A stretch of 64,000 bases of DNA from Ignavibacteriales bacterium (GCA_012517155.1 JAAYVN010000110.1:1-64000), one strand, 5' to 3'; counted from the first letter of the stretch, positions 32,254-48,578 are shown. Program-made: numbers and translations. The notes: a model not told the origin generated them from the letters alone.

Positions 32254-34131
32254 TCATACTCCGGGTAGTGTAAAGACAAAATCGGTACCCTTCCCTTTTT
32301 CGCTGAACACTTGAATACTACCTCCATGTTTCTCGACAACCTCTTTACAAAGCGTAAGTCCCAATCCAGTTCCTTTTTCCTTATTAGTTCCTTCTGTAGT
32401 GAACCTAACGCCAAGGTCGAACAGTTTTCCGATATCCTCCTTTGGGATACCAACTCCTGTGTCTGAGACTGTAACTTTAACAAATTCATTTTCCTTTTCG
32501 CCCCTTAACGAAATACTACCTCCCGCATTAGTAAACTTGACTGCGTTTGAAATAAGATTTCTTATTACCAGTTTAACCATATTAGTATCAGCCGAAATAT
32601 ACAAATTATCAGGAATTTCATTTTTTAACTCAATTCCCTTATTATTAGCTACCAAAGTCAATGGTTCAAATACTTTTTCTGTTAATTTTTTAAGAGATAT
32701 TAACTCCAAAGCTAAATTGTAGCTTTCATTTTGGAGTCTTGCCCAGTTAAGTAAATCGTCCAACATTTCAAATTGCTTCCTGAGAGCGGTATTTAACTCA
32801 GAACTAAAGAACTTGATCTCTTCCTTGCTTAAAGACTCATAATCAGTTGCAAGAATTTCGGATAATCCCAGGAAACCATCAAACGGACCTCTTAAATCGT
32901 GTGCGATTATCGAGAAGAACTTATTTTTCATGTCGTTTGCATGTTTCAGTTCCCCGGTATATTTTTCCAGTTGTATTTCACTTCTCTTTCTTTCGGTAAT
33001 ATCCGTAAAAATACTAAGGAGAAATAACTTTTCTCCCTCTTCATCAATATAGGAATTGGCTACATGGACCCAAATTTTCCTACCGTTCCACAACTCCATT
33101 TCACGTTCAAAATGTGCATCTATTTTTTTATTTTTGAATCGTTCATAATACCTTTTCTGAATATGCTCTCTCTCACTTTCGGAATAAATATCGCAAAGAG
33201 AATTCCCCTCCATTTCCTCCTTAGTTTTTCCGACCAAATCGCAAAAAGCCTTATTGACTTTTATGACTACATCATTAGCATCGGTAATCCGCATTCCACT
33301 AGCGGAGTTCTCCCAAACACCTCTGAATTCCATTTCTGAAATCTTTTGTGCTTTCTCTGCAAGTTTCCAGGCAGTAATATCTTCGACCGCACCTTCATAG
33401 AATAAAATTTTCCCCTCAGCATCTCTTACTACCCTGGCACTTTCCCTAACGTATAAAACTGATTTATCTTTTGTAAGCCATTCCGATTCAAATCCCTTTA
33501 TTTCTCCGTTTTTCTCCAGAGTCTCTTTAAAATCCTTTCTTCTATAAACCCTTTCCTCGTGCTCATCTTCAAGGTTTAATTTTGCGACTTCTTCAAATGA
33601 GTCATATCCGAGCAAATTTATTAATTTGGGATTTGCCAGCAGAATTTTTCCGTCAGGTGTGGTTCTGTATAATCCGACGACACTTTTTTCAAATATGGTT
33701 CTGAACTGCTCCTCTGCATGTCTTAACTTTAATTCAGTTTCTCTTTTTTCCCGAAGTTGAATGATTTTTTTAATTGCACTTTGTATTGCCGGTTGAATTC
33801 TTCTGAGGCTATCCTTCAGGATATAATCATCAGCACCCGCTTTTATGCATTCGACTGCTGTCATTTCATTAATTGAGCCGGTAATAAGGATAAATGGGGT
33901 GTCAGGATACTTTTCATTTCTGACCTTCAACGCTTCCAACCCACTAAAACCGTGCAAAGTATAGTCAGACAAAATGACATCCGGCACATTGATTTTTAAA
34001 GCTGATATATATTCATCCTCAAGTTCAACCAACTTAATATCGGCATCATAATGTTTTTTAATTTCAATTGATATAAGCTTGGCATCACTTGGATTATCCT
34101 CTATCAACAAAACTTTTAATTTTTCTTTCAT
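32254..34131 (-). CDS. Receiver-PAS-PAS histidine kinase
   Basis: A 625-residue cytoplasmic protein. The receiver domain (about 1-125) has LLIEDNPSD and VILSDYTLHGF; two PAS domains follow (about 134-260 and 265-390). The HisKA domain has FFSIIAHDLRGPFDG, and the HATPase domain has NLISNAVKF, DTGVGIP and GTGLGLTLCKE. All boxes are intact. It is 14 bases after the degenerate membrane kinase gene and is likely co-transcribed with it. Its PAS-kinase half closely resembles the split kinase at 28130-32139, suggesting duplication. Confidence 0.92.
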   Translation of the reverse strand: MKEKLKVLLIEDNPSDAKLISIEIKKHYDADIKLVELEDEYISALKINVPDVILSDYTLHGFSGLEALKVRNEKYPDTPFILITGSINEMTAVECIKAGADDYILKDSLRRIQPAIQSAIKKIIQLREKRETELKLRHAEEQFRTIFEKSVVGLYRTTPDGKILLANPKLINLLGYDSFEEVAKLNLEDEHEERVYRRKDFKETLEKNGEIKGFESEWLTKDKSVLYVRESARVVRDAEGKILFYEGAVEDITAWKLAEKAQKISEMEFRGVWENSASGMRITDANDVVIKVNKAFCDLVGKTKEEMEGNSLCDIYSESEREHIQKRYYERFKNKKIDAHFEREMELWNGRKIWVHVANSYIDEEGEKLFLLSIFTDITERKRSEIQLEKYTGELKHANDMKNKFFSIIAHDLRGPFDGFLGLSEILATDYESLSKEEIKFFSSELNTALRKQFEMLDDLLNWARLQNESYNLALELISLKKLTEKVFEPLTLVANNKGIELKNEIPDNLYISADTNMVKLVIRNLISNAVKFTNAGGSISLRGEKENEFVKVTVSDTGVGIPKEDIGKLFDLGVRFTTEGTNKEKGTGLGLTLCKEVVEKHGGSIQVFSEKGKGTDFVFTLPGV

Positions 34132-34145
34132 ACTATTTTAGGTTT

Positions 34146-35897
34146 TTAATAATTCCTTTCTGAGTCAGGCACAGAAAACACTATCTTGTTTTGCTTTCCT
34201 GATGAGCTTTCGAACCACATCTTTCCCCCCTGTTTTTTAATTATTTCTCTGGAAAGAGTTAATCCAATTCGTTCTTTATTATCAGTTTGTTGTGCCTCCA
34301 AAAAACTCTTTACTCCTTTACGGATTTCCCCGGAAGTTTCTTTCAAATTATCGTGTTCACAATCAGTTACCGAAATCTCCACGAAATCTCTTTTTCGAAT
34401 AGCGTTGACGTTAATATTTTCCCCTGACGCTGCATACTTAATACTATTTGATACAAGATTCCTGAGGACTACTTTTATCAAATTATAATCCCCCTTTATT
34501 TCAAAGTTCTTAATTACATTACTGTTTAATCCAATTCCTTTCCGTATGGCTGCTAATTCAAAATCCCTTAAAACACCCGAAGTAAGTTCTTCCAGATTTA
34601 TTATCTCCACCCTCATTTTGAAATCCTCACTTTGAATATTAACCCACTGGAGCATCTCATCAAGGAGATTATACTGTGCATTAAGTTCCGTATTGAGTTC
34701 TGATAATAATTTCTTTACGTCCTCACCTCTATGTATTTCATTGTTTTGATTTAACTCTGAGGTTTTTTTTAGCATACTATCATAAGGGAATCTCAGATCA
34801 TTCGCAATTATCGCAAAAAGTTTATTCTTTGTTTCATTTGTTTTTTTAAGTTCGTCTGATTGCACCTTTAATTTTCTTTCCTGATCCTTTAACTTCGAAA
34901 TATCTTCCAGTGCAGTAATAATGTGGGGTATTCCATTTAAATTGACCAGTTTACTAGAAGCCAAAGTAATAATAGGTTCGCCGTTTTTTTTCTTCAGCCA
35001 CATTTCCCGTTTTTCAATTACCTTCTCCTTTCTAACCTGCTCAATCATCTCTTTTCTTTGCTCAGGGAATGCCCATAACTCTCTTTCAACTGACGTTTTG
35101 CCAATACATTCTTCCCTGTTATAACCAAGCAATTCCGTAAAACCAGTATTAATATCAATTATCAATCCATCCCATAAGCGTGATATTGCAACTGCATTCG
35201 GACTAGTATAAAAAACCGACTCAAAATGCTCCTTTGTCTCGTTTAAATCGCTTATCAACCTTTGATTTATAAGGACAATAAATCCGTAGGTCCAAAGCAA
35301 TCCAAAGATAAATGTAAGTATATATGGTGAAATATTAAAGAAATCCGTTGCACCGATATTACCCTCTAATCCGGAAAGGATTCCAATTGATCTCAGTACA
35401 TACATAAATCCATAAAAGAGATAATTTGCAATCATTAAATTGCCGGCAGATTTTATAGACTCCAGATTAAACTTATGAAACAAAAATGCGCAATAGAATG
35501 AATAGAAAAACATTACTAAAGAAAAAATGAATGCACGTAAAGACATATTGTCTTCAACGAATAGGAAATAAGATATTAATAAAGTGGCAATCAAGGAAAC
35601 GAAATAGACAGTTCGGGGAGATTCATTTCTATCAAAAAATCTTAAAATACCAATAATCATGAAAATGAATGCAAGAAACGATGTTATGTTTTGGAACAAA
35701 ATGGCAACCTGTGCCACGGAAGGGAGAGCACGGAGAATATTGAAGAATAATACAAGAACCATCGTGGCTGCAACAAGAAGCCACCAGCCTAATCCTGAGA
35801 ACCGTCTATTGATTATAAACTGCTGGAACAACACCAAAAATTGGATCATATGTGTTATTCCCATGATTATAAGCAGTACAAAATAGGAATTGTCCAA
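34146..35897 (-). CDS. Membrane PAS pseudo-histidine kinase
   Basis: A 583-residue protein with about seven N-terminal membrane helices (residues 1-215), a PAS domain (about 220-345) and a kinase-like core. The H-box reads LFAIIANDLRFPYD, so asparagine stands where the phospho-acceptor histidine should be. The N-box NLVSNSIKY is kept, but the G1 region reads TDCEHDN rather than DxGxG, and G2 reads RIGLTLSRE. It probably cannot phosphorylate itself. It could act as a membrane sensor that controls the intact kinase encoded next in the operon. Confidence 0.85.
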   Translation of the reverse strand: MDNSYFVLLIIMGITHMIQFLVLFQQFIINRRFSGLGWWLLVAATMVLVLFFNILRALPSVAQVAILFQNITSFLAFIFMIIGILRFFDRNESPRTVYFVSLIATLLISYFLFVEDNMSLRAFIFSLVMFFYSFYCAFLFHKFNLESIKSAGNLMIANYLFYGFMYVLRSIGILSGLEGNIGATDFFNISPYILTFIFGLLWTYGFIVLINQRLISDLNETKEHFESVFYTSPNAVAISRLWDGLIIDINTGFTELLGYNREECIGKTSVERELWAFPEQRKEMIEQVRKEKVIEKREMWLKKKNGEPIITLASSKLVNLNGIPHIITALEDISKLKDQERKLKVQSDELKKTNETKNKLFAIIANDLRFPYDSMLKKTSELNQNNEIHRGEDVKKLLSELNTELNAQYNLLDEMLQWVNIQSEDFKMRVEIINLEELTSGVLRDFELAAIRKGIGLNSNVIKNFEIKGDYNLIKVVLRNLVSNSIKYAASGENINVNAIRKRDFVEISVTDCEHDNLKETSGEIRKGVKSFLEAQQTDNKERIGLTLSREIIKKQGGKMWFESSSGKQNKIVFSVPDSERNY

Positions 35898-36230
35898 CTA
35901 AACTCCTTATATTTTATGAAATAGCTCTTTCGCTTTCAAGACGAAAAACCACTAAATGCAAATGATAATATAATAAAAAAAAACTTTTCTACCCCTCCCT
36001 TTTTTTGACGTTATAAATTTTGGGAATTCCTGAAAATACTATTAAATATTTTTATCATATTTCTCAATCCGGTTGAAAAACATCAGAACCCGGTTTCGTC
36101 AAGGTCCAAAACCCCAGGATATTCAGACAGATCTTTTATATTATCTAATTTTCAATTTAATATGCCTCACATCCATTTTTTGGCTCTTGATTAAGTTTTC
36201 ACTATATTATATTTAATAAATTAGGAAAAA
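35898..36230. other. AT-rich divergent intergenic region
   Basis: This region separates the minus-strand membrane kinase gene from the plus-strand VirK-like/B12-sensor operon. TTG (36187-36189), an 18-base spacer and TATATTTA (36208-36215) give a near-consensus promoter for the plus strand. I see no riboswitch motif, small gene or repeat in the rest. Confidence 0.5.
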
Positions 36231-36698
36231 ATGAAAAAAACGGTTGTATTTCTAATCATTTCTTTCATCTCTACGGTAAGTATTGGGAATCCTGAGAGGA
36301 TAAACTCCATTTCCGAGCTCCTAAATAAACTCAAAGACGGATATACTCCCCGAATAATAATTAATTATTCATTATGTATATCTGACAATCAAGATTCTGA
36401 AGTAACGAAAGAAATAATTGGAGGAATGACTCTGGATAATTTTGAATATTTTTCTCCCGGTTCAATAAATAATCCTAATGGTTATATAGCGACCTCAGAA
36501 TCACATCTAATTCAACACAATAAATATGGTAATGTTCTTAACTATATTAAAATAAGATTTTTTGATAACGAGAAAGTCGAGATAATCGCCAGGTATCTTA
36601 ATCCTGAGACATTTGAAGTTATAATGGATCAAACTTATAATTCAATAATAAATAATTCAAAAAATAACGGTGGCGTTTCTTTATTTTTAACTCAATAA
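36231..36698 (+). CDS. Small secreted VirK-like protein
   Basis: A 155-residue protein with a signal peptide (about 1-19). The pattern LLNKLKDGYTPRIIINYSLC, GGMTLDNFEYF, SESHLI and NYIKIRFFDNEKVEIIARYL resembles the VirK family of small secreted proteins (ALKxGKxVRVxxDxxxC and GGxxIDAF blocks). The match is by eye and tentative. It is 14 bases before the B12-binding protein gene and behind its own promoter, so the two are probably one operon. Function is unknown. Confidence 0.5.
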   Translation: MKKTVVFLIISFISTVSIGNPERINSISELLNKLKDGYTPRIIINYSLCISDNQDSEVTKEIIGGMTLDNFEYFSPGSINNPNGYIATSESHLIQHNKYGNVLNYIKIRFFDNEKVEIIARYLNPETFEVIMDQTYNSIINNSKNNGGVSLFLTQ

Positions 36699-36712
36699 TT
36701 AAAGATATTTAA

Positions 36713-37780
36713 ATGGATAATCTGTACAATTCTACGGCAGTTAAAATCAAGGCAATGAGAAGCACCCTCCCCGACTTGCTCCTCGAAAAGCATTTTGAAT
36801 TGCAACCCTCTCTGAAAGAAAAATATAGTGAGCGTCAAACAGCACTTTATAAAGAAGATACAGCCTACCATTTAAGCTATTTATCGGAGGCAATTTCTGC
36901 AAATGAACCACTTCTTTTTAACGAGTATCTTTCCTGGGCGAAATCCTTTTTTGCTAATCTTCCCGTAACAGATGAGGAAATAATCCTGAATCTGGAATTG
37001 CTTCGGGATGAGGCTGCATCAAAGCTTTCTGATGGGGAAATTAATATTCTGAAATCATTTGTCAATAAGGGAATTGAACACTACAAGACATTTGATCCGG
37101 AGATTCCTTCCTTTATTGATGATAAAAAACCTCTTGCTTCCATTGCAAAAAGTTATCTTGATCACCTGATTAAGGGAGATAAGAATCCTGCGCAGGAATC
37201 AATCCTCAATTGTGTAAAAAACAGTGTTCCAATCAAAGATATTTATCTGCATGTTTTCCAAGTTACACAAAGAGAAACCGGGCGTCTCTGGCAAATTAAT
37301 CGTCTAAGTGTTGCCCAGGAACATTATATAACGGCAGCAACACAGTTCATAATGTCGAGGTTGTACCCCTATCTTTTCTCATCGACTCAGAAAAAACAAA
37401 AGATCATAATTTCCTGCACAGCCGGAGAACTGCATGAACTTGGTGCGCGGATGGTTGCGGACTTCTTTGAAATGGATGGATGGGATAGCTATTACTTCGG
37501 TGCGAATACACCGCCAGCATCGCTGATTAATGCAATTCAAACATACAAACCGGCTGTTGTTGCTCTGTCGGTAAGCATGACTTTCAATCTCTCATCATTA
37601 ACAGAACTAATTTCTGAAATCCGCAGGAATCCGGCTCTGAATGAGATAAAAATTATTGTCGGGGGTTTTCCTTTTCTGATCTCTCCCAATTTATGGCAAC
37701 ATGTAGGTGCGGATGGATGTGCTTCTGATGCTTTGGCGGCAATTAATTTAGCTTCTCAACTAACAAACACCAACAAATAA
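36713..37780 (+). CDS. B12-binding photoreceptor-like protein (CarH-type sensor domain without DNA-binding domain)
   Basis: A 355-residue cytoplasmic protein. The C-terminal half has a four-helix B12-binding-2 module followed by a Rossmann B12-binding domain. W193-x9-E203-H204 equals the W-x9-EH motif of CarH, where it caps adenosylcobalamin. E239-L-H241-E-L-G244 equals the E/D-x-H-x2-G motif whose histidine ligates cobalt. SVSM, VGGFPF and GADGCASDA complete the fold. There is no MerR-type DNA-binding domain; residues 1-140 are helical and unassigned. The stop overlaps the kinase start by one base (TAATG). It is inferred to sense light or cobalamin and signal to that kinase. Confidence 0.85.
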   Translation: MDNLYNSTAVKIKAMRSTLPDLLLEKHFELQPSLKEKYSERQTALYKEDTAYHLSYLSEAISANEPLLFNEYLSWAKSFFANLPVTDEEIILNLELLRDEAASKLSDGEINILKSFVNKGIEHYKTFDPEIPSFIDDKKPLASIAKSYLDHLIKGDKNPAQESILNCVKNSVPIKDIYLHVFQVTQRETGRLWQINRLSVAQEHYITAATQFIMSRLYPYLFSSTQKKQKIIISCTAGELHELGARMVADFFEMDGWDSYYFGANTPPASLINAIQTYKPAVVALSVSMTFNLSSLTELISEIRRNPALNEIKIIVGGFPFLISPNLWQHVGADGCASDALAAINLASQLTNTNK

Positions 37781-38988
37781 TGAATACATCAAACGAAGGT
37801 ATTCTGTTAATGCTGGATAGCAACGGATATATCAGTCAAATCCTATTCAATAATTTAAGCATTAGTAATAGTAATAATCAGATGAGTATATCTCCGAAAG
37901 CCGGTTCGCTATTCAGTTCGCTATTCAGAGATGAAGATTTGCAAAGAGTCCTCTCTTTCCTAGTTGACATTAAGAGTAAATCGGCCTCTTTCGGGTGGGA
38001 ACTTTTTTTAAAGGAGAACTACTGTTCATTACCAGTATCATTTGGTGGTGCAATACTTGAAAATAGAATCATGGTATTCGGCTCTTTTTCAACGGTTGAT
38101 TTTTCACGATTCTTTTCCGGCATGATGGTGATAAACAATGAACAAACGGAGCATATCCGGAAACTCGAGAAAGAACGTTTAAAATCTCTAAACTCAAAAT
38201 CCGCGGATTCGGTTTTGATGTTCGATGAGTTAACAAGACTTAATAATGATCTGGTTAATATGCAGAGGGAACTTTCCAAAAAGAATCATGAACTTGCAGA
38301 ATTAAACAAACTTAAGAACCAGTTTATCGGAATGGCTGCCCACGATCTTCGCAGTCCCCTTGGAAACATTCTTAATTTTTGTGAGTTTATTGAAGAAGAA
38401 CCGGAGAATCTTTCATCAGACCAGAAAGAATTTATCTCCACAATTGATAGTTTGGCAACCTTTATGCTAAATATGGTAAATGAACTCCTTGATGTCACTT
38501 CCATTGAGCAGGGAGAGATAAATTTATCAAAAAATGACTATGATCTGATTACCTGTATAAACAGAGTCGTTTATCTTAATAAATCACTTGCGGACAGGAA
38601 AAATATCAAGATCAATACACCCACATTTCCGCAACAACTTATTGTCAATATTGATAAGAGCAAAATAGAACAAGTACTAACGAATTTATTAACAAACGCA
38701 ATAAAATACTCTTTTCCCGAGAGTATTGTAGACATCTTAATCCACCAGCAAGCGGATGAAGTTGCAGTTTCTATCCGGGATCATGGTCAGGGAATTAAAT
38801 CCGACGAACTAAGACTCCTATTCAAACCATTTCAAAAAACCAGTACTCAGGCAACGGCAGGGGAAAAAAGTATAGGCCTGGGGCTTTTTATAGTTAAAAG
38901 AATAGTGGAAGCACATGGTGGGAAAATTACCGCCGAAAGTATTTTAAATTCGGGCACCACATTTACTTTTACCCTCCCCACAAAATGA
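37780..38988 (+). CDS. Histidine kinase paired with the B12-binding sensor
   Basis: A 402-residue soluble kinase. The N-terminal domain (about 1-115) is PAS-like but divergent (GILLMLDSNGYISQILFNN ... IMVFGSFSTVDF). A coiled coil follows (about 120-180), then HisKA with GMAAHDLRSPLGN and HATPase with NLLTNAIKY, DHGQGIK and GLGLFIVKR. The catalytic boxes are intact. Translational coupling to the B12-binding protein suggests the two act together. No response regulator is directly attached, so the partner may be one of the receivers at 43-45 kb. Confidence 0.9.
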   Translation: MNTSNEGILLMLDSNGYISQILFNNLSISNSNNQMSISPKAGSLFSSLFRDEDLQRVLSFLVDIKSKSASFGWELFLKENYCSLPVSFGGAILENRIMVFGSFSTVDFSRFFSGMMVINNEQTEHIRKLEKERLKSLNSKSADSVLMFDELTRLNNDLVNMQRELSKKNHELAELNKLKNQFIGMAAHDLRSPLGNILNFCEFIEEEPENLSSDQKEFISTIDSLATFMLNMVNELLDVTSIEQGEINLSKNDYDLITCINRVVYLNKSLADRKNIKINTPTFPQQLIVNIDKSKIEQVLTNLLTNAIKYSFPESIVDILIHQQADEVAVSIRDHGQGIKSDELRLLFKPFQKTSTQATAGEKSIGLGLFIVKRIVEAHGGKITAESILNSGTTFTFTLPTK

Positions 38989-39148
38989 ATAGCCATAAAT
39001 TTTTTTCTTGTATATTTTCTCCTGTTTGTTTATTTTTCTATTCTAGTTTTAGAAAGCATTTGTAAATTCAGACACCTGATAATTTGCTTTATGTAAAAAG
39101 GTTATTTAACATCTAAATGCTTAAACAAAAACCCCTTAGGCAAAGTTT

Positions 39149-42100
39149 ATGAATAACGAAAAGAATAATGAAACCAGAACCGATTCGTCTTCAATGACGA
39201 ATTTGGATTACACCACGATTGAGAAAATCCTAATCAATTCTCCAATTATTACAGCCCTTCATGATAAGGATCTGAACATGATTTGGGCAAATAAAGCCTA
39301 CCAAGAAGCGACCGGATTGTCACTTGAAGAAATTAAAGGGAAAAAATGCTATTCGGTCTGGAATCTATCTAAGCCATGTAACAATTGCCCCGTCCTCGTT
39401 GCCGCCCAAACAGGAAAGCCCTACGAAACCGAACTGACCCCCGAAAATCAGGATCACTGGCCGGAGTCCCAAGGTTATTGGTTATCTAAAGCTGCTCCTA
39501 TTTTTGATGATAACGGTCAGCTAATTGGAGTTGTTGAGAATGCTATAAGTACTACAGATCAGAGAGAAAAAGAAAAGTTAGTCAATTTTCAAGCTCACAT
39601 TCTAAACGAAATTCGCGAATCCATTATTGCTACTGATCTTCAAGGTAATATAACTTATTGGAATAAGGGAGCGGAAAGAAACTTCGGTTATACAAGTGAT
39701 GAAGTACTTGGGAAAAATGTAGTGGAAATCACTCCAACTACAATGACTGTTAAGCAGGCTGAGGAAATTTTGTCAAAACTCAGACTGGGTGAAACCTGGA
39801 GAGGTGAATTTAAACTTCGCCGCAAAGATGGGAGTGAATTCTGGGGTTATGTTTATGATAATCCTATACTTAATAATAAGAACGAGTTAACGGGTATAGT
39901 GGGAATTTCCTATGACCTTACTCAAATAAAGGAAGCTGAATATGCCCTAAAGCATTCCTCCGATTTAATGAATTATATCATTGAACACAACCGGAGTGCC
40001 GTAGCTGTTCTTGATAAAAATTTAAATTATATCTATGTAAGTAAAAAATATTTGGATGATTATGGAATAAAAGAAGAATCTATAATAGGTAAAAACCATT
40101 ATGATATATTTCACGACATTCCTCAAAAATGGAAAGAAATACATAAGAAGGTGCTTATTGGAGAAATATTCAGTGCAGAGGATGATCCTTACGAGCGAGA
40201 AGATGGAACAGTTTACTGGACACGATGGGAATGCCGCCCCTGGCATGAAGCCGATGGTTCAATAGGTGGAATTATTATTTACAACGAAATTACTAACAGA
40301 CAAAAAGCTTTAGAAAACCAGCTACGCTTTTACAATGAGAGACTTAAGTTGCTAACTTCCATAACCGAACAAGTAATAGGGAAAAAACCGATTGACATTG
40401 CGGCAAATAAAATGCTGAGCGAGATAGTAAAAGCGTTTAAGGCTGACGCGGGGGTAATCCGGATTATTAAAGGGGAGAAATTGCAACTGCTAACAAAGTA
40501 CAATGTTCCGGACGATAGTGTTGTAGCTGAGTTGCCGATTAATTTTGGTATAGCCCACACAATTCTTACAACCATGTCACCTCAGGCTATTATTGACACC
40601 CAAATAAATGAAACCACAAAAAATATTACAAGTTATCATGCAAATGCATTTCAATTCAAATCATATGCGGGAGCTCCTTTGCTGGTCCACAATGAAGCAA
40701 TCGGAATTATCGGGATTTATGTTACTAATGAAATGCGAGAAATTACAGACGAAGACCTAACCCATCTACAGATTGTGGCAAACCATTTAGCTGCTGCAAT
40801 CCAAAATGAATTCCTTTACAAGGAAGTAATGTCCCAAAAAACGGAACTTGAATCCGAAATAACCGCCCGAATAAAAACAGAAGAAAACCTATCGGAGAGG
40901 GAAAAACAGCTTAATATGATTGCTGAAACAACCGGAGCAGTTTTTTACCGCTTAAGATATTCGGATATGAAATATGATTATATGCATCCTGCGATTGAGC
41001 AACTTACCGGTTATTCGGTTGAAGAAATAACAGAAATGGGTTTCAAACCTATTGTTCTTGCTATTGAGCAAGCAGGTGGTGAGGAAATAGATGCAGATAA
41101 ACTTGAATTAAACAGAGACAAACTCAAGTACCAGTTTCATGCTGATTATCAGATTCGCAAACGTAATGGTGATGTAAGATGGATCTCAGATCAATCCAAT
41201 CCATGGTGTAGTCATGATGGCAACCTTTTAGGCTCTGTTGGAATTCTTAATGATATTACTCAAAGAAAAATTACCGAAAAGGAGGTTCAAAGAGCCAGAG
41301 AAAAAGCAGAAGAGTTAGTGGCAATTAAATCCAACTTTTTCTCTAATATGAGTCACGAGCTAAGAACTCCACTCGTGGGCATCCTGGGTTTTTCAGAAAT
41401 TCTTCAGGATGAACTGAGCGGAGATTCAGAATTAAATGAAATTGCAGGATTTATTAATGTAAGTGGTAAACGTCTTTTAGAAACACTTAACCTACTACTT
41501 GACAGTTCAAAACTTGAAGCAGGAAAGGTAGAAGTAAATATTGCAGATGCAAATATTGTTCCTATTCTGAACGATGTATATAATCTCTACTTCCCAATTG
41601 CATTAAAAAAGGGACTTTCTTTTAACTTTAAATGCGAAAAAGATTTTATTCTTGCAAAAATTGATGAAATTCTAACAAGATCTATATTGGACAATCTTGT
41701 CAACAATGCCATCAAGTTTACAAATCAAGGAAACGTGACTATAGCAATTGAGAGTAACTCCCGATCAGTTGAAATCAATATTATTGATACGGGTATTGGA
41801 ATCCCAGAAGACAAACAAGACATTATTTGGGAAGAATTCCGCCAAGTAAGCGAAGGAGTAAACAGAAGTTTTGAAGGAAGCGGATTAGGACTTTCAATAT
41901 CAAAACATTATGCTGATCTTATGGGGGGAAAGATTTCAGTTGAAAGCAATATAGGGAAAGGATCTACATTCAGACTTATCCTGCCTGCTGTAGAAAAAGA
42001 AATTCCCCATGCCCATGATGATACTCAGCTTTCAATTAATATTCATAGAACCGAGATAATGGAAATCAAGATCAAACCTAATATCCTATATGTTGAGGAT

Positions 42101-42442
42101 GATAAAGTTTCAGCGGAAGTTCTAGTTTATGCGACAAAGAATTTGTATGAAATAGATGTTGCCGAATCCGGAGAAGATGCTATACCTATGCTCCAAACTA
42201 AAAAATATGATGCCATTCTTATGGATATAAACCTAAGAAAAGGACTGGATGGAGTCCAAGTTACTAAAATGATCAGACAACTTCCTTCTTACAAAAAAAC
42301 CCCCATAATTGCGATAACTGCTTACGCATCTACCGGAGATCGGGAGGAGTTTCTTGCAAATGGTATGGATTTCTACATCTCCAAACCATATAAAAAACAT
42401 GAAATACTTAAATTACTTAAGGAAGCAATTCCGGAGAAATAA
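39149..42442 (+). CDS. Hybrid sensor kinase with PAS, GAF and receiver domains
   Basis: A 1,097-residue cytoplasmic protein. Approximate order: PAS (24-130) with a CNNCP cysteine pair, PAS (140-265), PAS (267-390), GAF (400-560), PAS (570-710), HisKA with FFSNMSHELRTPL, HATPase with NLVNNAIKF, DTGIGIP and GSGLGLSISK, then a C-terminal receiver (970-1090) with VEDD and AILMDINLRKG. The PAS cysteines could be redox-active or bind a metal; that is a guess. It is separated from the B12 operon by 160 bases and ends at a terminator. Confidence 0.92.
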   Translation: MNNEKNNETRTDSSSMTNLDYTTIEKILINSPIITALHDKDLNMIWANKAYQEATGLSLEEIKGKKCYSVWNLSKPCNNCPVLVAAQTGKPYETELTPENQDHWPESQGYWLSKAAPIFDDNGQLIGVVENAISTTDQREKEKLVNFQAHILNEIRESIIATDLQGNITYWNKGAERNFGYTSDEVLGKNVVEITPTTMTVKQAEEILSKLRLGETWRGEFKLRRKDGSEFWGYVYDNPILNNKNELTGIVGISYDLTQIKEAEYALKHSSDLMNYIIEHNRSAVAVLDKNLNYIYVSKKYLDDYGIKEESIIGKNHYDIFHDIPQKWKEIHKKVLIGEIFSAEDDPYEREDGTVYWTRWECRPWHEADGSIGGIIIYNEITNRQKALENQLRFYNERLKLLTSITEQVIGKKPIDIAANKMLSEIVKAFKADAGVIRIIKGEKLQLLTKYNVPDDSVVAELPINFGIAHTILTTMSPQAIIDTQINETTKNITSYHANAFQFKSYAGAPLLVHNEAIGIIGIYVTNEMREITDEDLTHLQIVANHLAAAIQNEFLYKEVMSQKTELESEITARIKTEENLSEREKQLNMIAETTGAVFYRLRYSDMKYDYMHPAIEQLTGYSVEEITEMGFKPIVLAIEQAGGEEIDADKLELNRDKLKYQFHADYQIRKRNGDVRWISDQSNPWCSHDGNLLGSVGILNDITQRKITEKEVQRAREKAEELVAIKSNFFSNMSHELRTPLVGILGFSEILQDELSGDSELNEIAGFINVSGKRLLETLNLLLDSSKLEAGKVEVNIADANIVPILNDVYNLYFPIALKKGLSFNFKCEKDFILAKIDEILTRSILDNLVNNAIKFTNQGNVTIAIESNSRSVEINIIDTGIGIPEDKQDIIWEEFRQVSEGVNRSFEGSGLGLSISKHYADLMGGKISVESNIGKGSTFRLILPAVEKEIPHAHDDTQLSINIHRTEIMEIKIKPNILYVEDDKVSAEVLVYATKNLYEIDVAESGEDAIPMLQTKKYDAILMDINLRKGLDGVQVTKMIRQLPSYKKTPIIAITAYASTGDREEFLANGMDFYISKPYKKHEILKLLKEAIPEK

Positions 42443-42458
42443 TTCAGACCAAACAAAA

Positions 42459-42479
42459 AAGGCAGCACTAAGCTGCCTT
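42459..42479. terminator. Bidirectional terminator
   Basis: AAGGCAGC and GCTGCCTT form an 8-bp stem with an ACTAA loop between two convergent genes. In the minus direction a T-rich run follows. Confidence 0.8.
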
Positions 42480-42485
42480 CCAATA

Positions 42486-42842
42486 TTAACTTCCGTAATA
42501 AATCCGGCTTGCCGAATAATTTCCTTGTCTGTTGTTCAGTATCTCCATTCTTAAAGGTGGTTGAATTAGTAAGTTGGTCTGACTAATCTGTCCATCTTCA
42601 AAATCTCTTAATTCCCGGGGCTGATGCTCTTCAAAATTTGATATCTGATGAGAATATGCTCCGGTATTCACAGCTTTGATTTCAATCTGTCTTTTATTGA
42701 AAGCCTTGTATCCACTCGCCCCTGCATGTTGGACAACTTTTGTTGATTTTCGCCTGTAGCGCAAGAAACTGTAAATAAGCATTACTCCTACTACCGACAC
42801 AAACCCGGCTAAGGCTATACCCATAATAGCTGAAAGACTCAT
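42486..42842 (-). CDS. Small single-helix membrane protein, unknown
   Basis: A 118-residue protein with one N-terminal membrane helix (about residues 5-27), then a basic RYRRKS segment and a polar, probably disordered tail. I recognise no family. It converges on the hybrid kinase gene and ends at the shared terminator. The start has no strong ribosome site. It could be a membrane anchor or adaptor, but nothing shows this. Confidence 0.5.
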   Translation of the reverse strand: MSLSAIMGIALAGFVSVVGVMLIYSFLRYRRKSTKVVQHAGASGYKAFNKRQIEIKAVNTGAYSHQISNFEEHQPRELRDFEDGQISQTNLLIQPPLRMEILNNRQGNYSASRIYYGS

Positions 42843-43019
42843 CCTAACTCTCTTTTCAATCTTTTCATACGTATCCTAACGAATTTCTTAAACCTAAAGT
42901 TCTAATTTACATCATTTCTGTATATATGATGTGATTTGAATCAATAATACAAGATTCATAAAAACCTTAGATATTTCAAAAAAAAATTCTGAGTGATTTC
43001 GAACTTAGAAGGAAAAGTC

Positions 43020-43046
43020 GGACGCAAGGGGTATTTGCTTGCGTCC
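43020..43046. terminator. GC-rich hairpin, probable terminator
   Basis: GGACGCAAG and CTTGCGTCC form a perfect 9-bp stem with a 9-base loop. The 352-base gap between the genes at 42842 and 43195 holds this hairpin, a TG-repeat stretch near 43120-43136 and the palindrome at 43160-43192. Confidence 0.6.
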
Positions 43047-43159
43047 AAACCCTGATTAATAACCTATCTTGCCTGTATACCCAAATTTTTTCGGCTTTTC
43101 CTCACCCCTGTTGTGTTCTTTATTGTGTGTGTGTGTTTATTTTGAGAGGGCATATTTCA

Positions 43160-43192
43160 GTATATCGAAATTATATTATAATTTCAATATAC
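43160..43192. repeat. Long AT-rich palindrome
   Basis: GTATAT-C-GAAATTATA-T-TATAATTTC-A-ATATAC: 15 of 16 arm positions pair around a single central base. It begins 3 bases after the receiver gene's stop codon. It may terminate transcription or bind a protein. Confidence 0.75.
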
Positions 43193-43194
43193 GG

Positions 43195-43623
43195 TCATAT
43201 CCCATTCAAATTCTTTCTAAAAATCTGTCCCTGTTTCTTATACCAAAACACTTGCTGGCGACCACTCTCTTTTTTTTGTTTTATGACATCAATTACTTTA
43301 TAAAACTCGTCTGTTTTGTCGAAAAAGAAGTCTGCTTTAGCCTGTTCACCACGTTTTCTATTCACATCCGTAGCGTAGTTGGTCAATAGTATTACTGTCG
43401 TTTTTCTTTCTCTTTTCTGAACTTCTCTTAAAACATCAAAACCATCGCCCCCCGGCATTGTCAAATCCAAAACTATGAGGTCAGGATTTTGTTCGCAAAT
43501 TTTGTTTATTGCATCCCTTACATTAACCGCATTAGTAATTACAGCTTCCGGATTATTTCTCGAAATTAACTTTCCAAGACTTTCCCTTATTATTGATGAA
43601 TCATCAGCAATTAGTATTTTCAT
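43195..43623 (-). CDS. Stand-alone response regulator receiver
   Basis: A 142-residue CheY-like protein: IADDSS at the N-terminus, phospho-acceptor in LIVLDLTMPGGDGF, LLTNYA and the usual Lys position in FFDKTDEF. The C-terminal ~20 residues (KKESGRQQVFWYKK...) add a short basic tail with no known DNA-binding fold. It lies 122 bases downstream of the LuxR-type regulator gene. The output is unknown; it may relay phosphate within the signalling island. Confidence 0.85.
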   Translation of the reverse strand: MKILIADDSSIIRESLGKLISRNNPEAVITNAVNVRDAINKICEQNPDLIVLDLTMPGGDGFDVLREVQKRERKTTVILLTNYATDVNRKRGEQAKADFFFDKTDEFYKVIDVIKQKKESGRQQVFWYKKQGQIFRKNLNGI

Positions 43624-43745
43624 CTTTCCGGATTTTCATTTTTCACTATCCAAAAATCGTAAGATGTTAGAAAGAAATTTGTAATCGGATCGATATTTAT
43701 TTGTAGTCATTTTGACTACAAAAAGAGGGGGGTATAATGATAGAT

Positions 43746-44375
43746 TTACAGAAGTTTATTGCAAATAGCGTAATGTATTAATTCTGCTGTAGAATTGATA
43801 TTCATTTTTTCCATTATTCGTGCACGATAGGATCTGACTGTATTCGGACTTATAAATAGTTTTTCTGCTATCTGGTTAACATTTTTTCCTTCTCCAATGA
43901 GAACCAGAATTTCAAGTTCCCGCTCGGAAAGTTTTTTATGAAGTAATTTTTCAAGTTGACCATCAAAGTCAGCTGCTATGGAATCAGCCAGTTCTTCACT
44001 AATATATTTTTTTCCCATGCTCACCTTATTTATCGCTTTTATAAGCTCTGCCGGAGTACTGTCCTTCGTCAAATAACCCTTTGCACCCAGCCTAAGAGAT
44101 TTCAGCGCATATCTCTCTTCGGGTGAAATACTTAGAATCAGAATTTTTAATGCCGGATTTATTTTCAGCAATTCGTCAATAATATCAAGTCCATTTCTAT
44201 CCGGCAAATTAATATCAAGAGTCAGAATATCACATTCATTTTCTCCTAAAAACTCTATTACCCCCGCAGCTGTTTCGAGTTCAGCGATTATTTTGATATC
44301 GTTATCCCGTTCAAGAATTTTTCTTAATCCTGCACGTATAATGGGATGGTCATCAGCAATAGCTACTTTTTTCAT
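43746..44375 (-). CDS. NarL/LuxR-type response regulator
   Basis: A 209-residue regulator. The receiver has IADDHPIIRAG, phospho-acceptor in ILTLDINLPDRNG, and the Lys in LTKDST. A LuxR-type helix-turn-helix follows (LSERELEILVLIGEGKNVNQIAEKLFISPNTVRSYRARIMEKM in family positions). It is 38 bases after a HisKA_3-type kinase gene, the usual partner class of NarL regulators. It is the only clear DNA-binding output between 28 and 46 kb. Confidence 0.93.
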   Translation of the reverse strand: MKKVAIADDHPIIRAGLRKILERDNDIKIIAELETAAGVIEFLGENECDILTLDINLPDRNGLDIIDELLKINPALKILILSISPEERYALKSLRLGAKGYLTKDSTPAELIKAINKVSMGKKYISEELADSIAADFDGQLEKLLHKKLSERELEILVLIGEGKNVNQIAEKLFISPNTVRSYRARIMEKMNINSTAELIHYAICNKLL

Positions 44376-44413
44376 TTTTCGGAAAAGAAAATTTATTTAA
44401 TTATTAAATATAA

Positions 44414-45580
44414 TCACTCAAGTGGGACTGAAAGAACTATTTTAGTTCCATTTCCGGGTTTAGAAATGATTTCAACTTCTCCTTCCAATAGAATTGCTCT
44501 TTCTTTCATACTTATTAGTCCAAATGAATCTCTATCATTTAGATTTTGTTCCACAAAACCGATTCCGTCATCAACTATTTCCATTCTCATAATTTGATTG
44601 ATTTTTGTTATAGACACTTCTACAACAGAAGCCTTTGAATGTTTATGGATATTATGCAATGATTCCTGCAGAATCCTAAAAATTGCTGTTGACTTATCTT
44701 TGCTAAATTGAAGTTCACCCGGTTCGCCGTTAAAATTCCATTGAATACTTTTGTTTCCTTTGGCAAACTCTTCTAAAATCCACTTAATGGCATCAATCAA
44801 TGAAAGATTATCCAAGATCTCAGGTCGCAAACTTCTGACAAGTTTTCGTACATTTTTCACCGTATTCTCTATTATCGACATCATTGCGTCTATTCCTTCA
44901 GTTATCGAAGCCGGAATTGCAAGATTGAGATCAGTGATATCATTCCTTAGCATCGTAAGTTCAATTTTCAGTCCAGTAAGCGCTTGTCCAATATCATCAT
45001 GAATATCCCTTGATATAATCCGTCTTTCATCCTCCCGGATATCCTGAAGGTGTGCAGCAAGATTTCTGAGTCTTTCAAGATAGAACGTAAGTTTTTCTTC
45101 TGCTTCGATTCTCTCCGATATTTCCTTTTCCAATTGAAGATTCCGGTTCTTTATTTGAATTTGTAATTGCCTTAATGTGAGGTGAGTTCTAACACGTGCA
45201 ATTACTTCTCTTATCTTAAATGGTTTGCTTACATAATCAACTGCCCCGGCCTCAAAGCCCTTGATAATTGATTCCGGTTCATTTAATGCGCTAATAAATA
45301 TTATCGGGATTTCTTTTGTTGACTCGTTATGCTTGATCTGACGGCAAATATCTAAACCATTTACTTTAGGCATCATGATATCAAGCAAAACCAATGTGGG
45401 GGGATTTTGTTCAATCATATTCAAAGCTTTAATTCCATCTGATGCCTGACACACACTAAAACCCTCTAAAGTGAACATTTTTACAAGATATTGTAAATTC
45501 ACTTCAGTATCGTCGACAATAAGAATATCGTACTCTTGCCCAACAATGCATTCCGGATTCAATTTATTTTCATCCACCAT
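44414..45580 (-). CDS. Receiver-HisKA_3 histidine kinase (NarX/UhpB class)
   Basis: A 388-residue cytoplasmic protein. An N-terminal receiver (about 13-130; VDDTEVN, LVLLDIMMPKVNG, PIIFISA, SKPF) is joined by a coiled coil to a HisKA_3 dimerisation domain with the histidine in RDIHDDIGQALTG. The HATPase part has LQESLHNIHKHS, DDGIGF and GLISMKERA. It has no input domain other than the receiver, so it is probably driven by phosphate from another kinase. It should phosphorylate the LuxR-type regulator encoded next. Confidence 0.92.
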   Translation of the reverse strand: MVDENKLNPECIVGQEYDILIVDDTEVNLQYLVKMFTLEGFSVCQASDGIKALNMIEQNPPTLVLLDIMMPKVNGLDICRQIKHNESTKEIPIIFISALNEPESIIKGFEAGAVDYVSKPFKIREVIARVRTHLTLRQLQIQIKNRNLQLEKEISERIEAEEKLTFYLERLRNLAAHLQDIREDERRIISRDIHDDIGQALTGLKIELTMLRNDITDLNLAIPASITEGIDAMMSIIENTVKNVRKLVRSLRPEILDNLSLIDAIKWILEEFAKGNKSIQWNFNGEPGELQFSKDKSTAIFRILQESLHNIHKHSKASVVEVSITKINQIMRMEIVDDGIGFVEQNLNDRDSFGLISMKERAILLEGEVEIISKPGNGTKIVLSVPLE

Positions 45581-47064: not shown

Positions 47065-47607
47065 TTATTTTTCCCATCTTATATCAGATTTACCAGCCAA
47101 TTTGTTCTCATATCGGGCTAAAACGAACAAAAGATCAGAAATCCTGTTAATAAATATAACTATATTTTCGTTGATTTCTTCTCCCTTTTTCAATGCCACA
47201 ACGCGTCTCTCTGCTCTTCTACAGACGGTTCGCGCCACATGTAATAATGCGGCACTTTTACATCCTCCCGGAAGTATAAAATACCGGAGTTCTTCTATTT
47301 GTTCTGTGACTAAATCTATAAATCCCTCAATCTCCTGGATGTCCTTCTGCTTAATTCTGGGGACTTCGAATCCTTTTACATCTGATGGAGAAGCCAGATC
47401 ACCTCCTGAAACAAATAGTAGATTTTGAATTTTAATCAGTTGATTTCTTACTATTTCCCCTTTAACTTCTGTAAGCGCTAATCCAATAGACGAGTTTAAT
47501 TCATCAATTGTTCCGTATGCTTCAATTCTTATGGAATCCTTTGTAACTCTTCCGCCGCCAAAAAGCCCAGTTTCCCCCTTATCTCCCGTTTTTGTATAAA
47601 TTTTCAT
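47065..47607 (-). CDS. Cob(I)alamin adenosyltransferase, PduO type
   Basis: About 180 residues from the ATG at 47607 (MKIYTKTGDKGETGLFGGGRV), which overlaps the upstream stop by 4 bases (ATGA). KTGDKGETGLFGG is the ATP-binding signature, and ARTVCRRAERRVV plus the NRISDLLFVLARYEN end are typical of PduO/MMAB enzymes. It makes adenosylcobalamin from ATP and cob(I)alamin. That cofactor is the chromophore expected for the CarH-like protein at 36713-37780, although other B12 enzymes may be the main users. Confidence 0.93.
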   Translation of the reverse strand: MKIYTKTGDKGETGLFGGGRVTKDSIRIEAYGTIDELNSSIGLALTEVKGEIVRNQLIKIQNLLFVSGGDLASPSDVKGFEVPRIKQKDIQEIEGFIDLVTEQIEELRYFILPGGCKSAALLHVARTVCRRAERRVVALKKGEEINENIVIFINRISDLLFVLARYENKLAGKSDIRWEK

Positions 47608-48578
47608 GTTTTTTCTCTCCATTCTCCCTTGATTGTGATTTTAGATCTTTCTTCTATGTCACTTCCTTTCGTTTCATAAGTGGCACCGTCGATATTAAAC
47701 TCTTTCCTTATCACTCCCAATCCTTTTGTTTTTCCGTCAATGGGGGATTTAATTAAGGTTGTAACTTTTCCGATTTCAATATTGTTATGGAGAATCATTA
47801 AAGCATCATCGCTAATCGTTTCCATGTCCGACTCAATTCTTATGAGAGACTTCTGAACTTTGTTATATGTATCCAATCTTGCTATGACTTCCTGACCAAT
47901 GTAACATCCCTTCTTAAAATCAACTGCGTTCAGCAGATTAATTTCATGAGGATTAAAGCTATCCTTTATCTCGTTCTTACCGGGCTTCCCCATTTCGATC
48001 ATTAAACCATTATACTCCTCACCAGTTATTATTTGAGGGAAATTTTCATCCCCATCAAGTTTAAGAACCGTTGATAAAAATAAAATATCTTCCTTACTCC
48101 CAACAATTATGATTTCAGAATACTTACCTGTTTTTTCACCCTTGATAATCAAGAACTTTTTATTATTATAAATAAATTCAATAGCCTCATCCGGTGCTGA
48201 TTCCGATATATCTACTGCATACCTGGCAAAAATATATCTCTCGACACAGTTCCCAATTAACTTAATTGTTGCATATTTCTCAGTAATGTCTTCTACAAAT
48301 ACATCATCTCCAACTATAAATCGCTCAATCCATCTTCGAAATTTCTCCCGATTCGATATTGTCCCCACCAGGAGTTGATATTCTCCCAAATTTATATAGC
48401 GACAAAGATCTATTATTCTCCCTTTCTCGTTTGTAAAAATCGTCAAACGGGTTCTCATAAAACCTGTTTCTCTAATTCTGTTTGTTGAGATTCGATGAAT
48501 ATATTCCGGAACATCTCTCCCTTTCAACTTAAAAATGGAACTATCTTGCCCCAGTGTTGCTATCACACCATCATACAA
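47604..48578 (-). CDS. ygfZ: YgfZ/GcvT-like folate-binding protein
   Basis: A 324-residue GcvT-fold protein with the YgfZ signature KGCYIGQEVIARLD (K-G-C-x-x-G-Q-E). Family members help iron-sulfur enzyme maintenance using tetrahydrofolate. The open frame from the TTG at 48578 continues upstream for about 30 codons without ATG, GTG or TTG. An excellent ribosome site (AGAGGTGAG, 48672-48680) lies just before an in-frame ATA at 48666-48668, so the true start may be there. The stop overlaps the adenosyltransferase ATG. Confidence 0.85.
   Translation of the reverse strand: MYDGVIATLGQDSSIFKLKGRDVPEYIHRISTNRIRETGFMRTRLTIFTNEKGRIIDLCRYINLGEYQLLVGTISNREKFRRWIERFIVGDDVFVEDITEKYATIKLIGNCVERYIFARYAVDISESAPDEAIEFIYNNKKFLIIKGEKTGKYSEIIIVGSKEDILFLSTVLKLDGDENFPQIITGEEYNGLMIEMGKPGKNEIKDSFNPHEINLLNAVDFKKGCYIGQEVIARLDTYNKVQKSLIRIESDMETISDDALMILHNNIEIGKVTTLIKSPIDGKTKGLGVIRKEFNIDGATYETKGSDIEERSKITIKGEWREKT

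Follow-up and report, generated by a model that had tools for sequence, protein, structure and literature searches.

What does a protein with a CarH-like cobalamin domain sense and control when its gene lies directly before that of a histidine kinase? We studied such a gene pair, P0001 and P0002, in a DNA stretch of 64,000 nucleotides from an Ignavibacteriales bacterium (hereafter the window), for which a sequence-only reading had proposed a light- or B12-sensing two-component module. The features of the locus are collected in Table 1. The three open reading frames of the presumed operon have exactly the limits and the strand claimed for them, and the claimed one-base overlap is present as TAATG, the stop codon TAA of P0001 (37778-37780) and the start codon ATG of P0002 (37780-37782) having one base in common. 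Our reading, to which we give a probability of about two in three, is that P0001 is a photocobilin with its domains running from globin to B12, which acts as a detachable sensor of the adjacent histidine kinase P0002.

Table 1. Positions of the features of the P0001-P0002 locus in the window, and of ABM genes at related loci (locus coordinates)
Feature	Position	Strand	Basis
VirK-like protein, apparent signal peptide (by eye)	36231..36698	+	PF06903, borderline
P0001, photocobilin-type protein, 355 aa; N-terminal globin-like domain, four-helix bundle, Rossmann B12 domain	36713..37780	+	Pfam, PDB sequence search, AlphaFold2, Foldseek
Globin/phycobiliprotein-like domain of P0001, residues 1-135	36713..37117	+	Profile vs PDB, PF00502, conservation
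Y46 of P0001, at phycobiliprotein chromophore-Cys position	36848-36850	+	Alignment
D49 of P0001, at bilin Asp of CXRD motif	36857-36859	+	Alignment
W75 of P0001, at SasPcob Trp296	36935-36937	+	Alignment
Cobalamin-binding domain of P0001, residues 142-355; motifs G190xxW193, E203-H204, G238xxH241, G263xxxP267	37136..37777	+	Pfam; motif counts in 63 relatives
TAATG stop/start overlap of P0001 and P0002, one base	37778..37782	+	Sequence
P0002, soluble histidine kinase, 402 aa	37780..38988	+	Pfam, alignment A2, AlphaFold2, Foldseek
P2N adapter of P0002: PAS-like domain (1-107), coiled coil (108-175)	37780..38304	+	Conservation, model
Kinase core of P0002: HisKA (179-245), HATPase_c (292-401)	38314..38982	+	Pfam
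H188 of P0002, predicted phospho-acceptor	38341-38343	+	Invariant in 40 relatives
PAS/GAF-rich hybrid histidine kinase, C-terminal receiver	39149..42442	+	Pfam
Cobalamin adenosyltransferase, PduO type, outside the operon	47065..47622	-	PF01923, E 4e-60
ABM gene, L036	5612-5917		
ABM gene, L039	5599-5898		
ABM gene, L044	5642-5938		
ABM gene, L047	5692-5991		
ABM gene, L051	5510-5872		
ABM gene, L053	5568-5873		
ABM gene, L057	192-491		
ABM gene, L061	5645-5941		
Further ABM genes, L063, L067, L086, L038, L050, L060, L094			

P0001 carries both CarH-type motifs ascribed to it, W193-x9-E203-H204 and E239-x-H241-x2-G244, and Pfam detects B12-binding_2 at residues 146-217 (E 2.4e-11) and B12-binding at residues 230-344 (E 7e-21). 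Neither a MerR domain, whose absence had been claimed, nor an HTH is found by Pfam in the whole protein. As W193, E203, H204 and H241 are invariant in the alignment of 63 full-length relatives, the motifs are not due to chance. The published signature of light-responsive cobalamin domains (SignatureFinder) consists of GxxW, EH, GxxH and GxxxP (PMC11796333); all four are present in P0001, and among the relatives they occur in 63/63, 63/63, 38/63 and 62/63, respectively. By phmmer the closest relatives in the PDB are the photocobilins 8j2w, 8j2x and 8j2y (E 8e-24 to 2e-17), and the AlphaFold2 model (mean pLDDT 95.8, pTM 0.90) is matched by Foldseek to 8j2w, 8j2y, CtMerR and CarH via its B12 part, which overlays 8j2w at about 2 A. 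Gln194 stands in for His132 of CarH, a Gln being also found in SasPcob, and therefore P0001 is not expected to form a bis-His light state like that of CarH; this replacement of the second His ligand of CarH speaks against our reading. In public annotation, P0001-type proteins are merely called 'cobalamin-dependent protein'. Stand-alone B12 proteins of 211-228 aa with the light signature (L020, L024, L030), having neither a DNA-binding domain nor a kinase, are also conserved in relatives of the window, flanked on one side by a membrane protein resembling PAP2 phosphatases and on the other by a protein of about 440 aa that is lipoprotein-like or secreted.

A rival reading is that P0001 carries methyl groups as the corrinoid protein of a methyltransferase system, neighbouring a kinase by chance, and its best partial match in NCBIfam is MtgC (E 1e-20, far under the cut-off). 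However, in a tree of 24 domains, where the CarH and Streptomyces rows are on long branches, CarH, the Streptomyces photocobilin and the P0001 group are separated from the corrinoid/MetH proteins with support of 99/98. P0001 thus lies outside the clade of methyltransferase corrinoid proteins, and a placement among these was what the sequence-only reading had named as a refutation of its own proposal. The alignment shows that the corrinoid/MetH proteins are without the Trp and Glu-His of P0001, no methyltransferase adjoins the pair, and the pairing with a kinase is conserved across many phyla. An internal negative control for the motifs is given by the second B12-domain protein of the same genome (L002, contig C90), which adjoins a methionine-synthase-like sequence and has neither the Trp nor the Glu-His. 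Motifs and tree together lead us to reject the identity as a corrinoid methyltransferase protein, and we consider a methyl carrier very improbable.

The description of P0001 as a CarH-like domain holds for its B12 photoreceptor signature, but it overlooked residues 1-135, which form a globin of the photocobilin type. The profile built from 35 N-termini of P0001-type proteins (A5) has only phycobiliproteins (allophycocyanins and phycocyanins) and photocobilins as its best PDB matches, with E 1.4e-8 for allophycocyanin and 8e-6 for three photocobilin chains. Phycobilisome (PF00502) scores weakly on P0001 itself (E 0.0015) and matches 30 of the 63 full-length relatives (best E 1.3e-10) and 22 of the 35 members of the profile set, for which no other Pfam family matches. 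Asp49 is kept in 58/63 relatives and Trp75 in 63/63; in the phmmer alignment (SasPcob numbering by an offset of chain + 5, anchored on W61, E71 and H72) they align with Asp270 and Trp296 of SasPcob, which are described as bilin and corrin contacts (PMC10979010). Given this globin-type N-terminus with D49 and W75 retained, P0001 is by its sequence a photocobilin, that is, a member of the B12 and bilin photoreceptor class, with domains in globin-B12 order and both ligands predicted, and a mere head-less CarH domain is ruled out by the PDB profile matches and PF00502. The globin-first order is mentioned among predicted photocobilin relatives (PMC10979010). In layout, the combination of a helical, globin-like fold with a partner kinase also recalls globin-coupled sensors, so that one may think of a gas sensor in which heme bound by the globin would detect O2 or NO and B12 would be an additional input. 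Against this, Phycobilisome is the sole matching Pfam family, the profile matches phycobiliproteins and not hemoglobins, and the most conserved positions, D49 and W75, are bilin/corrin contacts, which leaves heme sensing very improbable.

Variants of the photocobilin gene are seen in several relatives. A split form, with a B12-domain gene and then a separate globin gene of 150 residues, is present at L025 (1486-2590), L031 (1474-2590), L026 and L029, followed at L025 and L031 by a PAS-like kinase whose coiled coil is similar. Within one genus, two genomes (L015/L121 of G149 and L127 of G410) have a stop or a change of frame that splits the photocobilin gene between its globin and B12 parts, with the kinase intact, while the gene is whole in a third member of the genus (L122).

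The partner P0002 proves to be a histidine kinase, as had been proposed, with HisKA (E 9e-14) and HATPase_c (E 3e-27) found by Pfam and with little or no variation at H188, N302, N306, D334, G336, G338, G366 and G368; Foldseek matches it to HK853 and LOV-kinase chimeras. Its N-terminus of roughly 170 residues, here called P2N, is unnamed in Pfam, and none of 41 members has a credible Pfam match, PAS included. The AlphaFold2 model of P2N shows, with moderate confidence, five strands around a helix in a PAS-like topology, and its coiled coil contains the motifs NNEQxNxxR and LNNELVxxQREL.

How widely the pair is conserved can be judged from 74 full-length globin-B12 proteins at distinct loci, 73 of which have enough downstream DNA. 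On the whole, 63 of these 73 loci have a P2N protein downstream of the photocobilin or fused to it, always close. The P2N proteins are HisKA kinases at 48 of the 63 loci, hybrid kinases with a receiver at 4 and GGDEF proteins at 6, the remainder being 3 truncated and 2 fused; natural fusions of the B12 protein with a kinase are seen at L050 and L109. Since these loci had been picked by P0001, the search was also run in reverse and genome-wide, with a P2N profile built from photocobilin neighbours. The 146 genomes of the order gave 17 strong P2N matches, every one adjoining a P0001-type gene, and of the 43 P2N genes in 50 genomes from other groups, 42 adjoin a photocobilin gene; the sole P2N protein with no photocobilin gene within about 3 kb is L221:3119-4141, in the genome of L035. 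The pair, suggested for a search in other Ignavibacteria, thus recurs well beyond them, and P2N is nearly exclusive to photocobilin neighbourhoods. Because the outputs swap between kinase, hybrid kinase and GGDEF while P2N stays, we regard P2N as an input adapter. Over 36 pairs, and with shared ancestry not corrected for, the distances of globin and P2N correlate with r 0.72, compared with 0.73 for the globin and the B12 domain of the same chain and 0.57 for the globin and the kinase core.

Carriers of the photocobilin are found in Chloroflexota, Bacteroidota, Balneolota, Paenibacillus, Azospirillum, Fusobacteria, where Ilyobacter pairs it with a GGDEF output, and methanogenic archaea. Seven globin-B12 photocobilin genes belong to methanogens (L048, L069, L072, L073, L082, L091 and L111), some with a P2N kinase, and the bilin Asp is mostly kept despite the strictly anaerobic life of these organisms. 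One Geobacteraceae bin has at least five such B12-domain genes (L098, L100, L101, L105 and L109), several of them adjacent to P2N kinases or fused with them. The photocobilin gene of Marinimicrobia (L081:6004-7035, L088:5953-6981) directly follows that of a protein of roughly 1130 residues with an internal B12 domain, probably a methionine synthase.

As to the neighbourhood, the VirK-like gene, which was said to lead the operon, does precede the pair here, ending 14 nt upstream of P0001, and also in some relatives, but it follows the pair in others and is usually unlinked. Its protein scores 23.6 bits with PF06903 against a cut-off of 23.7, while the relative at L041 passes with 26.8 bits; the gene adjoins the pair in the window, L147, L155, L157 and L041. 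The VirK-like protein (window and L158-L183) occurs in 14 of 17 pair-carrying genomes of the order and in 4 of 129 others (p 1.6e-13, ancestry uncorrected), mostly in unlinked and unrelated places. A fixed membership in the operon is therefore ruled out despite the strong co-occurrence at the genome level. Downstream, the hybrid kinase starts 160 nt after P0002 and is a candidate phosphorelay partner of it. Among the relatives, Pfam often detects a receiver or receiver-kinase as the next gene after the P2N kinase, with a receiver directly after the kinase at L147, receiver proteins at L148, L153, L077 and L085, and receiver-kinases at L033, L034 (after the VirK-like gene), L036, L041, L062, L064 and L154. 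From this frequent adjacency, a phosphorelay output of P0002 appears likely. The pair lies within a dense signalling cluster (window 32254-45580) including several PAS kinases and hybrid kinases, a lone receiver (43195-43623) and a NarL-type regulator (43746-44375). No riboswitch is found near the operon, the Rfam search over the window giving only tmRNA.

Which chromophores P0001 may carry can be considered from the enzymes encoded in these genomes. Supply of adenosylcobalamin (AdoCbl) is plausible, as the genome encodes a PduO-type adenosyltransferase; an AdoCbl gene cluster beside the operon was looked for and rejected, this gene being a lone one, 9 kb off and among unrelated genes. As for bilin, heme oxygenase (PF01126) is found in none of 44 Ignavibacteria-class genomes, this one included, of which 18 have the pair or its CBD-only form, and in only 6 of 50 photocobilin genomes of other groups; hence the bilin half of P0001 may be empty or filled with another ligand. 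Anaerobic heme cleavage of the HutW type is discarded, since its two matches are far under the family cut-off, as in nearly all control genomes. One version of our reading is accordingly a green-light sensor using AdoCbl only, with the globin as a structural remnant without bilin. It agrees with the missing heme oxygenase and ABM-type genes of this genome, with Tyr46 at the chromophore-Cys position, with CBD-only versions also paired with P2N kinases (L083, L084, L016 and L103) and with AbDPcob being light-responsive although it binds biliverdin poorly (PMC10979010). On the other side, 58 of the 63 relatives retain D49, which touches the bilin in SasPcob and phycobiliproteins, and biliverdin is bound by SasPcob with no Cys involved. 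We give this version somewhat less than even odds; with D49 and W75 kept and SasPcob needing no Cys, a bilin in the globin pocket of P0001 is possible.

In other phyla, an ABM-fold gene (IsdG/HmoB-like, PF03992) lies directly upstream of the photocobilin gene at about 15 loci. The nearest solved relatives of the Paenibacillus member include HmoB, MhuD and IsdI. Trp65 and His75 are invariant in these ABM proteins and Ser6 is in place of the usual Asn, the catalytic triad of IsdG-type heme oxygenases consisting of Asn, Trp and His. In 50 genomes, all 13 strong matches of this subfamily sit at photocobilin operons and nowhere else, and a Cys at the phycobiliprotein attachment position is found in 10 of 12 loci with the ABM gene versus 8 of 51 without it (Fisher p 1.7e-5, ancestry uncorrected). 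The ABM gene product is a candidate chromophore supplier; no such enzyme is found in the genome of the window, whose lineage has Tyr46 and no ABM gene. As a speculation that we hold rather doubtful, photocobilin and P2N might form a portable light-input cassette for kinases and diguanylate cyclases in bacteria and archaea, with the ABM enzyme of the same operon making, in part of the family, a bilin, possibly not biliverdin, that is loaded on a Cys of the globin, and with another ligand or none in the globin of the window's lineage, which lacks heme oxygenase.

In the mechanism we propose for P0001 as the sensor of P0002, where light as the signal, the contact with P2N, the direction of control and the receiver partner are what we infer, P0001 would bind AdoCbl in the dark, with His241 as the lower Co ligand and Trp193, Glu203 and His204 surrounding the adenosyl group, and would self-associate in this state as CarH and SasPcob do. 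Light would break the Co-C bond, the adenosyl group would leave, and the helix with E203/H204 would move. The altered P0001 would then change its contact with the P2N of P0002, which via the coiled coil would shift the kinase/phosphatase balance, and the phosphate would pass to receiver domains encoded nearby. Loss of the adenosyl group in the light is known to alter the assembly of photocobilins and CarH, and in vitro a photocobilin can regulate a cyclase supplied in trans (PMC10979010). Against light as the signal, many carriers are anaerobes or sediment organisms, methanogens included, for which light may be scarce. P0001 could instead be a chemical B12 sensor that reports the amount or form of AdoCbl, or the redox state, to the kinase, photolysis being incidental. 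Strict anaerobes and methanogens among the carriers would suit such a sensor, as would the two Marinimicrobia genes (L081, L088) just downstream of a long B12-domain protein, methionine-synthase-like by length, and AdoCbl binding alone alters the activity of a photocobilin-cyclase fusion (PMC10979010). But the Trp/Glu-His pocket around the photolabile adenosyl group does not vary among 63 relatives, and a globin pocket of the bilin type is kept, features superfluous for a plain B12-level sensor, so we hold this explanation unlikely, at odds of roughly one to four.

Overall, photoreceptors that combine B12 and globin domains, and roles for them in signalling, are already known or predicted. Photoglobins, reported by Schneider et al. 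in 2022, are said to be fusions of globin and B12 domains for which a role in signal transduction, as regulatory bundles that sense light, has been proposed; as far as they are described in citing papers, they share with P0001 the globin-B12 fusion. Neither a conserved kinase partner encoded separately and equipped with an adapter of its own nor the ABM gene is found in the literature surveyed; the 2022 photoglobin paper may mention such neighbourhoods. The different use of the CarH photoreceptor foreseen by the sequence-only reading stands as a conserved coupling to a kinase, but a non-DNA output is already published, namely a photocobilin fused to a diguanylate cyclase (PMC10979010). In the literature surveyed, the control by photocobilins shown in vitro is limited to a diguanylate cyclase, either fused or added, and a conserved kinase partner with its own adapter gives them a natural, assayable downstream pathway and, for optogenetics, a modular switch made of two proteins. 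Questions arising from it are the role of such a sensor in anaerobes and methanogens and the bilin source without heme oxygenase.

Among the known systems, SasPcob (8J2W/8J2X) and AbDPcob (8J2Y) are like P0001 in their CarH-type B12 domain and five-helix bilin-type globin (PMC10979010), with W-x9-EH, ExH, the bilin Asp and the Trp in common and, in SasPcob, the same Gln at CarH H132. The domain order of P0001 is reversed with the globin first, and its output is a separate histidine kinase, whereas theirs is a fused cyclase or none. CarH and LitR (5C8D, 3WHP) have the AdoCbl-binding light-sensor core and signature motifs in common with P0001, which lacks their MerR domain and second His ligand and has an extra globin and a kinase partner. 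The BBAG-2 systems likewise link a bilin-binding globin with a B12-binding protein, but as two separate genes accompanied by heme oxygenase and bilin reductase (PMC10151467), while P0001 is one protein with a kinase and neither enzyme. Finally, LOV-histidine kinases such as the chimera YF1 (4GCZ) resemble P0002 by Foldseek in the order of soluble PAS-type N-terminus, coiled coil, HisKA and HATPase; P2N differs from LOV in having no chromophore motif, and the light input of P0002 would come from a separate protein.
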